From a virus: DNA of 45,612 nucleotides. The stretch lies in IMG/VR virus record IMGVR_UViG_3300025233_000047, positions 1 to 45,612 of that record. One strand, 5' to 3'. This document shows positions 6,933-9,485 of the stretch, one piece after another; the stretch's first letter is position 1, and the number at the start of each line of letters is the position of its first letter. The notes under the pieces are model-generated. The model made no database searches and had not been told where the DNA came from. It saw only the letters and a program-made list of their open reading frames with translations. The translations under genes were made by a program, and so were the position numbers.

Positions 6933-7271
6933 TTGGATATTATCGGAGTTAAAATGTACGGCAGACAGGACGATGATTCAGATTTCGTTCTGTTTAACCT
7001 GGAGAAAGACGTAAATTTTATTGAGCCTCTTCAAATGACATCTAATTCCGCAAAAACATTAGCGTTTCATACCGCATGTGGTTCATACATTGCGATACAT
7101 CTTATGCGAGATGCGAAGCAGGCTTATAAGCAGTATGGGTTTGATGCATTCGACAGTTCAACCATAGTAAATCTTGAACGTATTGAGAGAACTGAGAATG
7201 TAGATAATGGAGGAATTGTCTATTTTAAAGATGGGTCACACGTTAAAGTGCGAAAAGTATTTAAAAAATAA
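6933..7271 (+). CDS. Small LytTR-like DNA-binding protein
   Basis: This 112-aa protein matches the LytTR pattern: NLEKDVNFIE at the beta strand region, LAFHTACGSYIAIHL, then the hallmark DSSTIVNLERIER and a closing YFKDGSHVKVRK. LytTR domains bind paired direct repeats and regulate transcription. There is no receiver domain, so it is a stand-alone form. The start is TTG, 7 bases after GAGGGG; the first ATG inside the frame has no ribosome binding site. It is divergent from a membrane protein gene and may regulate it and itself. The family call is from motif reading. Confidence 0.65.
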   Translation: MDIIGVKMYGRQDDDSDFVLFNLEKDVNFIEPLQMTSNSAKTLAFHTACGSYIAIHLMRDAKQAYKQYGFDAFDSSTIVNLERIERTENVDNGGIVYFKDGSHVKVRKVFKK

Positions 7272-7418: not shown

Positions 7419-7471
7419 AGTTCGCTGCATAGCGAACTTCTGCCCCGGTCGGAGTGACAGAAACGTCACTC
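7419..7471. repeat. Two adjacent perfect hairpins
   Basis: AGTTCGCT-GCAT-AGCGAACT (7419-7438) and GAGTGAC-N6-GTCACTC (7452-7471) lie side by side. The second overlaps the stop of the minus-strand regulator gene. They may terminate or protect converging transcripts, since the LytTR-like gene arrives from the left and the XRE gene from the right. There is no T-run on either strand. Confidence 0.6.
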
Positions 7472-7691
7472 AATCGCTGCTGACTTCGATACGCTCGTAC
7501 AAATCATCAATATAGCAACCAACTGCCGCGGCAATGGTCATCGCAGTTGCTATAGACATCGTTCTTTTTTTGTTAGCGTATTCCGAAATTGAAGACTTTG
7601 GAATACCAGTTACATCGGCTAACCACTGTTGAGAACGTTTGATTTCGCGTAATCTTTTTGTCAGCAGGCAACGACCAGGTTTATACACCAT
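7470..7691 (-). CDS. XRE-family helix-turn-helix regulator, small
   Basis: This 73-aa protein is essentially one HTH_3 domain: LREIKRSQQWLADVTGIPKSSISEYANKKRTMS covers the recognition helix. The domain binds operator DNA. The second ATG is chosen because GAGG lies 7 bases before it but only 1 base before the first. It is divergent from the 46-aa gene at 7792, and its promoter region contains the LexA-type box, so it may be co-regulated. It is a second lysogeny regulator besides the CI-like protein. Confidence 0.8.
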   Translation of the reverse strand: MVYKPGRCLLTKRLREIKRSQQWLADVTGIPKSSISEYANKKRTMSIATAMTIAAAVGCYIDDLYERIEVSSD

Positions 7692-7720
7692 GATCATGCC
7701 TCACTATATATTTTTTTAGC

Positions 7721-7749
7721 TTGTAACAGAACAAGTGTTCCCTTAAAAT
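7721..7749 (+). promoter_or_regulatory. Promoter with LexA/SOS-type box
   Basis: A -35-like TTGTAA (7721-7726) and -10 TAAAAT (7744-7749) are separated by 17 bases. Exactly between them lies GAACAAGTGTTC (7729-7740), which fits the Bacillus LexA (DinR) core GAAC-RNRY-GTTY, although the flanking C and G of the full consensus are absent. Bound LexA would block this promoter until DNA damage. It reads toward the 46-aa gene. Confidence 0.65.
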
Positions 7750-7791
7750 GAATATTACCAAAAGGCAACTAAGATTACGGGAGATGATCAG

Positions 7792-7932
7792 ATGGACACG
7801 GAGGAAATATTTGAAATACTGCAAAGTTGTGATGTCGATCAATTAATGATGATCCAGTCCGTTGCCCACGACCTACAATTGGAACACATTGAAGAGCGCT
7901 TGTGCCAGCTGATCTCTCTTTTAAGAGAGTGA
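7792..7932 (+). CDS. 46-aa protein, candidate SOS-induced antirepressor
   Basis: This short gene (46 codons plus TGA) starts with ATG 9 bases after GGGAG and begins MDTEEIFEILQSCDVDQLMM. It is predicted to be all helical and acidic to neutral, and no family is recognised. It follows the LexA-box promoter and converges on the CI-like repressor gene with 13 bases between stops. Since the repressor has no self-cleavage domain, a small damage-induced protein that inactivates it would complete the switch. The role is inferred from promoter and position only. Confidence 0.6.
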   Translation: MDTEEIFEILQSCDVDQLMMIQSVAHDLQLEHIEERLCQLISLLRE

Positions 7933-7945
7933 TGCTGGCTTCAAC

Positions 7946-8305
7946 TCACTTCTTATTATCCTCTTTTAACGCTTCTAACATATCCATCAATATTTTTCTT
8001 TTCTGTTCAGGAAGATTATTGATATCTTCTGCAAGTTTAAGCGTTCCATCAACTATATAATGTTCTTTGGCTTCTCGTACGGTTGCATACATAACTTCAG
8101 GTTCATTAAATCCAGATAATTGAGAAGGGGATACATCATAAAGAGTGGCTAGTTTATTGATCATCTCTAAGTCTGGTTCCCTGAGATCGTATTCCCAGTT
8201 TGCATATGTGCTACTTCTCTTCAATCCTAATTGTTTTGAAACGTATACCTGAGACCATCCGAGTTTTTCTCGTTCTCTTCGCAGACGCTCTCCTAAAGTA
8301 GACAT
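7946..8305 (-). CDS. CI-like lysogeny repressor (XRE family)
   Basis: This 119-aa protein has an N-terminal HTH_3 domain (LGERLRREREKLGWSQVYVSKQLGLKRSSTYANWEYDL region, residues 4-60) and a short helical C-terminal tail (about 75-119). There is no S24/LexA-like peptidase domain, so it cannot be cut by RecA in the lambda manner. GGGAGG lies 8 bases before the ATG. It is divergent from the Cro-like gene across the operator region. It most likely binds the TTACAC palindromes there. Confidence 0.88.
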   Translation of the reverse strand: MSTLGERLRREREKLGWSQVYVSKQLGLKRSSTYANWEYDLREPDLEMINKLATLYDVSPSQLSGFNEPEVMYATVREAKEHYIVDGTLKLAEDINNLPEQKRKILMDMLEALKEDNKK

Positions 8306-8338
8306 TTACACACCTCCCAATATTTAATCTTACCACTC

Positions 8339-8430
8339 TTACACAATAAAAATAATTATTTACACTAAAAGTGTTGACTTACACGTTTTGTGTATGTATT
8401 ATAAAGACATGAGTTACACGAAATGAGTAA
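8339..8430. promoter_or_regulatory. Lysogeny-switch operators and rightward early promoter
   Basis: Three 17-bp sites of form TTACAC-N5-GTGTAA are seen: O1 8360-8376 (right arm GTGTTG), O2 8379-8395 (GTGTAT) and O3 8414-8430 (GAGTAA), plus a half-site TTACAC at 8339-8344. A sound promoter overlaps them: -35 TTGACT (8374-8379), 17-base spacer and -10 TATTAT (8397-8402), reading to the Cro-like gene. O2 fills the spacer, so repressor there would shut early transcription. Confidence 0.8.
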
Positions 8431-8443
8431 AGAGGTGAGACGG

Positions 8444-8686
8444 ATGAGACAAAAACTTAGAAAACTAAGAATGGAAAGAGGCATTAGCCAAACATTCCTT
8501 TCGAAGAAGCTAGGATTCAGTTATCCAAGTGGATACTGCAACATTGAAGCAGGACGTAACAGACTCGGGTATGAACAAGCAGTTATTATTGCCGAAATAC
8601 TCGGAGTTGATGTTTCGGACTTGGAAGAAGAGCAGCTTTTTTTTGAGAAAAAGTTACACGAAAAGTGTAATAAAAAATTAGCTTAA
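8444..8686 (+). CDS. Cro-like XRE regulator
   Basis: This 80-aa protein with an HTH_3 domain (LRKLRMERGISQTFLSKKLG, then a recognition helix in YPSGYCNIEAGRNRLG) is the first gene of the early rightward operon and the probable counterpart of the CI-like repressor. The ATG at 8444 is preferred over the in-frame ATG at 8423, because AGAGGTG lies 6 bases before it while the earlier one lies inside operator O3 without a ribosome binding site. Its last codons contain a perfect operator (8654-8670). Confidence 0.85.
   Translation: MRQKLRKLRMERGISQTFLSKKLGFSYPSGYCNIEAGRNRLGYEQAVIIAEILGVDVSDLEEEQLFFEKKLHEKCNKKLA
8654..8670. promoter_or_regulatory. Perfect operator inside the end of the Cro-like gene
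   Basis: TTACACGAAAAGTGTAA is the only fully symmetrical copy of the operator in the window. It lies inside the coding sequence, 16 bases before the stop and about 250 bp downstream of the others, a spacing that could allow looping or a roadblock to the antirepressor gene. Confidence 0.65.
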
Positions 8687-8702: not shown

Positions 8703-9485
8703 ATGAACCAATTAAACATCGTTAACAACCAAGGTAAACTGCTGGCAGACAGCCGCGACATTGCAACAATGACAGGGAGACTTCATAAGAATCTGGTCCG
8801 AGATATTGAGACATATAAAGAAGTGTTGAGTGAAAGCTCAGATTTGAGCCCTCAGGATTTTTTCATCGAAAGTACTTACAAAACAGAAGGAAATAACAAG
8901 ACGTACAAGCACTTTCTTCTAACAAGAATGGGCTGCGACATGGTAGCTAACAAGATGACTGGACAAAAAGGCGTACTCTTCACAGCCACTTACGTATCCC
9001 GGTTCGCTGAAATGGAACGCAAGTTGGCAATGCCGAATCTTCCGCAGAACTACAAAGAAGCATTGGTTGCCCTGGTGGATCAGGTGGACAAAAACGAAAA
9101 ACTTCACACTGAAAACTTAATGCTTGAACAACGTGTGAGAGAGTACGAACCCAAATTGACCTACCTGGACCAAATCTTACAAAGCAAAGATACGGTGACG
9201 GTGACGCAGATCGCCAAGGACTACGGTTTGTCCGGAACAGCGCTGAACCAAATCCTTCATGAAGAAAAGGTGCAGTACAAACAAAATGATCAGTGGTTGC
9301 TGTACTCCAAACACCAAGACAAAGGATATACCAAGTCTAGAACGATCGATATTCATCACAACAGCGGCGAACGTTCGGTGCGCATGAATACACGATGGAC
9401 TCAGCCAGGAAGATTATTCATACACGGAATACTAAGTAAGCGTGGAATCATCCCATTCATGGATCGGGAAAACCCTGGAGCATAA
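8703..9485 (+). CDS. Phage antirepressor, Rha + KilAC domains
   Basis: This 260-aa protein has an N-terminal Rha-type regulatory domain (DSRDIATMTGRLHKNLVRDIE through the conserved FLLTRMGCDMVANKMTGQKG, residues 15-105), a coiled-coil linker (about 115-150), and a C-terminal KilAC/ANT domain (VTVTQIAKDYGLSGTALNQIL... through RWTQPGRLFIHGIL, residues 165-250). Such proteins bind DNA or repressors and help lytic development. It follows the Cro-like gene by 16 bases in the early operon with a clear AAGGAG. Confidence 0.9.
   Translation: MNQLNIVNNQGKLLADSRDIATMTGRLHKNLVRDIETYKEVLSESSDLSPQDFFIESTYKTEGNNKTYKHFLLTRMGCDMVANKMTGQKGVLFTATYVSRFAEMERKLAMPNLPQNYKEALVALVDQVDKNEKLHTENLMLEQRVREYEPKLTYLDQILQSKDTVTVTQIAKDYGLSGTALNQILHEEKVQYKQNDQWLLYSKHQDKGYTKSRTIDIHHNSGERSVRMNTRWTQPGRLFIHGILSKRGIIPFMDRENPGA

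Follow-up and report, generated by a model that had tools for sequence, protein, structure and literature searches.

The Gifsy prophages of Salmonella encode antirepressors, GfoA, GfhA and GftA, which are described as small, directly controlled by LexA and paired with a short, non-cleavable repressor (PMC3121763). One of these antirepressors is reported to serve heteroimmune repressors with different operators (PMC3121763), as is expected if the grip lies outside the DNA-binding part of the repressor. Tum of phage 186 and AntC of phage N15 are likewise described as LexA-controlled antirepressors needed for induction (PMC3121763, PMC4551915). The locus analysed here comes from the IMG/VR virus record IMGVR_UViG_3300025233_000047, positions 1 to 45,612. 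This whole stretch of 45,612 nt, hereafter the window, appears to be a prophage of a soil bacterium, and the host is taken as Paenibacillus from the nearest named relatives. The immunity region contains a gene for a protein of 46 amino acids (aa) behind a promoter with a putative LexA box, next to the gene of a 119-aa lysogeny repressor. The reading that fits the locus best is a prophage induction switch driven by SOS, in which a LexA-controlled antirepressor grips the repressor tail; we give it a probability of about 0.77.

As with the Gifsy antirepressors, the small protein of the window is found under a LexA box and its repressor is short and non-cleavable. Unlike the Gifsy genes, the window's gene lies inside the immunity region, convergent with the repressor gene and divergent from a gene for an XRE-type protein, and family searches (Pfam, PHROGs and NCBIfam) gave no relation to the Gifsy proteins. 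The parallel with Tum drawn in the sequence-only reading of the locus holds for the logic of a LexA-controlled antirepressor and fails for the sequence, since Tum is described as 146 aa long with a DinI-like half while the 46-aa protein is without any known domain. In the transcription factor and small open reading frame (TF-smORF) modules of vibrio and Aeromonas phages, unrelated small proteins are reported to inactivate the repressor and an XRE gene may adjoin the small open reading frame (ORF). These modules are described as SOS-independent, the Aeromonas repressor presented there being in addition cleaved on DNA damage, whereas the trigger proposed for the window is LexA (PMC10432266). AimX of the arbitrium phage phi106, a Bacillus phage, is according to PDB titles (9sf2, 9iaq) a small protein bound to an XRE-type repressor, and aimX is said possibly to be controlled by SOS and arbitrium jointly (PMC12768286, 2026). 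AimX is arbitrium-controlled, and a PDB search with the profile of the window's class of small proteins (class A, below), in which matches up to E 1 were admitted, gave no AimX chain. GIL01 resembles the window in that it, too, combines LexA boxes with a small phage protein, and its host is likewise Gram-positive. Its gp7 is reported to bind LexA itself and to strengthen LexA DNA binding (PMC4551915), whereas the exchange pattern at the window's locus speaks against LexA as the target. ImmR of ICEBs1 is the nearest PDB relative of the helix-turn-helix (HTH) domain of the window's repressor; unlike ICEBs1, the window record contains no match to an ImmA-type M78 peptidase and so does not belong with the ImmA/ImmR systems.

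The promoter of the small gene reads on the plus strand, with the -35 hexamer TTGTAA at 7721..7726 and the -10 hexamer TAAAAT at 7744..7749, and the box GAACAAGTGTTC at 7729..7740 lies between them. This arrangement with 17-bp spacing, first noted from the letters of the sequence, was confirmed in the sequence and by a promoter scan. Box and promoter are each unremarkable alone; the promoter is a chance-level match (three found and 2.6 expected in the scan of 7600-8480), and GAACNNNNGTTC occurs three times in the 45.6-kb window against 0.81 expected, so that a single box is weak evidence, and relatives of the locus were therefore examined. These were fetched from viral contigs, species genomes and Paenibacillaceae genomes with the divergent 75-aa XRE protein as bait. 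The conservation set consisted of 25 distinct loci including the window, in which the box was sought in the 130 bp upstream of the XRE gene, with 400 dinucleotide-shuffled sets as background. An exact GAACNNNNGTTC was found between the divergent XRE gene and the small ORF in 18 of the 25 loci, the window counted, while the shuffled sets had 0.03 loci with a box on average and at most 2, and the conservation is thus far above chance. The box is flanked by hexamers with a 17-bp option in 15 of these 18 loci; for L013, L043 and L048 the promoter scan gave no 17-bp hexamer pair around the box. The central four bases vary among the phages, as they do in host LexA sites. No exact box was found in L004, L010, L036, L037, L109, L108 and L113, the last two being rearranged or truncated at this locus. 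Among more distant Bacillales relatives of the XRE protein, L016, L017, L021, L024 and L031 also have GAACNNNNGTTC in the divergent region, mostly farther away.

The hosts' own LexA sites have the same form. There are five [GA]AAC-N4-GTT[CT] boxes per lexA promoter in all seven Paenibacillus genomes, GAACAAGTGTTT among them, and GAATGTATGTTC is found upstream of recA in five of five genomes. A matrix was made from these lexA and recA sites; AAC and GTT were fixed at collection (GAA[CT] being allowed for recA), so that only the non-fixed columns are informative. With this matrix the host sites score 12.1-16.8, and GAACAAGTGTTC is the best-scoring 12-mer of the window with 16.0, the runner-up scoring 13.1. 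The last base is the sole difference between GAACAAGTGTTC and a lexA box in L055, and in 10 of 22 phage boxes the inner ten bases are the same as in a host lexA or recA site. The LexA consensus of B. subtilis is given as CGAAC(n)4GTTCG (PMC4551915), and the window box is without the flanking C and G of that consensus. The promoter thus carries a GAACNNNNGTTC-type box of the host, as is found in LexA-regulated (SOS) genes of Bacillales. LexA control of the 46-aa gene, as originally proposed, is strongly supported by the conservation of the box in relatives and by its match to the lexA and recA boxes of the hosts.

At the right end of the window, a 104-aa ORF without family match (45298-45612, plus strand) has a ribosome-binding region that is overlapped by GAACGGAGGTTC (45282-45293), a sequence that also forms the lexA-proximal LexA box in several hosts (L056, L057, L142, L143). 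This ORF is possibly a second SOS gene.

The 46-aa ORF (7792..7932, plus strand) begins with ATG, 8 nt downstream of the ribosome-binding site GGGAG (7779..7783, plus strand), and similar sites are found in relatives. Its ratio of nonsynonymous to synonymous substitution rates (dN/dS) is 0.35 against a 72%-identical homologue in L002. Within a second class of small proteins at the same position (class B) the ratio is 0.31 for L013/L011 and 0.14 for L107/L131; the value of 0.23 for L005/L007 is based on two changes only. The ORF behind the promoter, taken for a gene in the sequence-only reading, is accordingly very likely a real coding gene under purifying selection, and the locus has a small coding ORF under a LexA box, as do the LexA-controlled antirepressors of the Gifsy, Tum and AntC kind. 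The predicted fold consists of three helices with a confidence score (predicted local distance difference test, pLDDT) of 87, and a fold search with this model gave nothing below E 4. The protein matched no family model in Pfam or NCBIfam and in PHROGs gave just E 0.2 to a family of unknown function. Searches of phage DNA and of the PDB gave no homologues, and the phage-protein search gave a single 23-residue chance match. Among 394 Paenibacillaceae genomes the class A profile has matches in three and the class B profile in five.

The 119-aa repressor is encoded on the minus strand at 7946..8305 (Pfam HTH_3, 5.8e-12). Its model has the HTH, a low-confidence linker at residues 70-77 and two C-terminal helices; the last 50 residues (7949..8098, minus strand), hereafter the tail, are the probable docking site of the antirepressor, judged from their co-variation with the small ORF. 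The Pfam scan of the repressor gave HTH families only and no peptidase, in line with what had been said of this CI-like protein. Both scan and model therefore show a cognate repressor without a self-cleavage domain, as in the known LexA-controlled antirepressor systems. In Foldseek the model is near ImmR and weakly near, mainly via the HTH, the phi106 repressor solved with AimX and SinR-SinI.

Several unrelated kinds of small ORF are found behind the same promoter in related phages. The small proteins were grouped from pairwise Z-scores over 24 loci and by eye into class A (window, L002, L008, L051, L086, L087), class B (L003, L005, L011, L013, L107, L131), class C (L043, L048, L119, L123) and class D (L036, L112), with L010, L014, L016, L091, L111 and L115 left without class. 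Near-copies were left out of the 24-locus test (L001, L006, L007, L012, L037, L045, L047, L049, L050, L084, L085, L088-L090), as were L109 (small ORF missed by the script), L004 and L042 (contig ends), L108 and L113 (rearranged) and distant XRE loci without an examined pair of small ORF and repressor (L015, L017-L033, L092-L101, L114, L117, L118, L120-L126). Also left out was L116, whose box is the degenerate AAACGCATGTTC and whose repressor frame is disrupted ahead of the tail, a tail-like stretch being present in a different frame.

In this test the similarity of the small proteins follows that of the tails with r = 0.75, and with a partial r of 0.74 given the HTH; none of 5000 permutations reached either value. 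The corresponding values for the HTH are r = 0.20 (p 0.006) and 0.14 (p 0.04). There are 32 pairs of related small proteins, and 31 of these have related tails and 21 related HTHs; none of the 37 pairs with a closely related HTH and an unrelated tail has related small proteins. Natural swaps give the same picture. The HTH of L086 is 75% identical to that of L013, yet its tail and small ORF are of the window's class, and L115 combines an HTH of the window's type with a different tail and a different small ORF. The window and L107 have XRE proteins that are 88% identical and a nearly identical promoter, and their small ORFs are 14% and their tails 10% identical; the two loci match as far as the ribosome-binding site and differ from there on. 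The left edge of this exchange is near the start codon of the small ORF, which places the LexA promoter and the XRE gene in the constant part and the small gene in the immunity cassette. Judged from these sequences, the kind of small protein goes with the kind of repressor tail, as would be expected of an SOS-induced antirepressor that grips the tail. The earlier proposal that the small protein is an antirepressor gains support from this tracking of the tail rather than the HTH, with the XRE protein little changed; the inactivation of the repressor we infer.

Several observations weigh against this reading. L004 has half a box only, and in the polymyxa-group relatives L010, L036, L037 and L109 another palindrome, CTAATCGATTAG, replaces the LexA box upstream of the XRE gene. 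Fewer than half of the pairs with related tails (31 of 64) have small proteins that are recognisably related to each other. In L091, L115, L014 and L016 a tail resembling that of class B goes with a small protein not recognisable as class B, and the pairing is therefore not one to one in recognisable sequence. The small protein of L111 is near class A by eye and below significance in the pair test. Tail mimicry of the SinI type, which class B proteins had suggested by eye, was rejected in a sequence test, as the mean Z over the 24 loci was 0.13 for small proteins against their own tail and 0.21 against other tails; no protein scanned had a Pfam SinI match. Mimicry in structure is conceivable all the same. 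The main caveat is that the small ORF and the tail are adjacent and could co-travel by linkage alone.

If this linkage were the whole explanation, the small protein could be an unrelated SOS-induced accessory. The genes are indeed close, with 14 bp between them in the window and an overlap in L003 and L005. Against this, exchanges are seen within the short interval just upstream, where the window and L107 diverge after the ribosome-binding site, and also inside the repressor gene, and a single one of the 32 related small-protein pairs, the marginal L002-L010 (Z 5.1), is without a related tail. Co-travel by adjacency is for these reasons unlikely. A small helical phage protein adjoining a LexA box could also, on the precedent of gp7 (PMC4551915), target host LexA, or it could target the XRE protein. 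The kind of small protein follows the repressor tail, and it switches while the XRE protein stays 79-88% identical (the window against L003 and L107). LexA, judged from N-terminal parts only, hardly differs between these hosts. Host LexA and XRE are therefore poor targets, the XRE protein being without co-variation and LexA common to all hosts, and such a target is very improbable.

The palindrome itself could be an operator of the divergent XRE protein, serving autoregulation and control of the TF-smORF type, instead of a LexA box. The XRE gene borders the 94-bp intergenic region in which the palindrome lies, and Aeromonas phages are described as having small antirepressors under XRE control (PMC10432266). 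The variable central four bases and the 10 of 22 inner matches to host lexA or recA sites are at odds with such an operator, as is the lack of a GAAC box in L010 and L037 with their 72%-identical XRE relatives. The LexA box and small ORF are moreover kept beside strongly diverged XRE proteins in L119, L123 and L131, the last combining a small ORF of class B with a different XRE protein. An XRE operator is thus quite unlikely. An antirepressor directed at the repressor is the best reading because the kind of small protein fits the tail, because it would be made only on SOS and because the repressor is unable to cleave itself.

In the switch proposed here, host LexA would in the lysogen occupy GAACAAGTGTTC between the -35 and -10 hexamers and keep the 46-aa gene off. 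On DNA damage, RecA would trigger self-cleavage of LexA and the promoter would open. The 46-aa protein would then bind the C-terminal helical tail of the non-cleavable repressor, which would lose its hold on DNA and come off the operators, and expression of the early genes (Cro-like, Rha/Ant) would begin, starting the lytic course. In related phages the LexA promoter would be the same and would drive different, unrelated small proteins, each accompanied by a matching repressor tail.

The divergent XRE/Cro-type HTH protein (7470..7697, minus strand; Pfam HTH_26 1.7e-7, HTH_3 5.7e-7) had been given as 73 aa; it is 75 aa from the first ATG and 73 aa from the ATG at codon 3 (7691), which fits the ribosome-binding site better. 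A promoter scan placed the early lytic promoter TTGACT-17-TATTAT at 8374..8402 (plus strand), and the TTACAC-type repeats read by eye around it are probably the repressor operators. It is followed on the plus strand by the genes of the Cro-like HTH protein (87 aa, 8423..8686; Pfam HTH_3 2.8e-8) and of a Rha/KilAC-type Ant protein (260 aa, 8703..9485; Pfam ANT 1.2e-33, Phage_pRha 7.4e-23), the first larger early gene. A LytTR-like protein of 112 aa (6933-7271, plus strand; Pfam E 5e-5) is encoded near the integrase, and similar ORFs adjoin the XRE gene, by eye, in L085, L086, L096, L132 and L135.

The lexA promoter of the host of L010, one of the loci with the other palindrome, has normal boxes (L057). 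The 16-base palindrome pattern is found in 6 of 394 genomes, with eight matches in mixed contexts in genome G189, one of them beside a LacI-type gene (L166). L112, with a LexA box, and L036, with the other palindrome, are related both in their small proteins, of class D, and in their tails. It is conceivable, if doubtful, that the XRE gene together with the divergent promoter serves as a constant input port, while trigger box, antirepressor, tail and DNA-binding domain are exchangeable parts. LexA would be the usual plug, and in the polymyxa-group phages TTATCTAATCGATTAG would take its place and link an antirepressor of the same kind to some signal that is not DNA damage.

The logic of a LexA-controlled antirepressor is already known, partly also in Gram-positives. 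What is new is the set of sequence families, the position of the small gene within the immunity region and an exchange pattern that tracks the tail of the repressor; no description of such a switch for Paenibacillus phages was found in the open-licence literature. Named phages with an XRE relative did not have this architecture with a box: in PVJ1 the small ORF is about 24 aa long and no box lies in front of it, and 268TH002 has a second XRE gene at the position of the small ORF, where the box was not looked for.

Many Gram-positive phages have a short repressor with a helical tail and no peptidase, for which the route from DNA damage to the repressor is open. Induction of TP901-1, for example, is described as RecA-dependent by mechanisms that are unknown (PMC11149083). 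The Paenibacillus phages would give a Gifsy-type answer, and their natural domain swaps make partner specificity directly testable. If the reading is true, one antirepressor could also induce several resident prophages that are mutually immune but have a tail in common.
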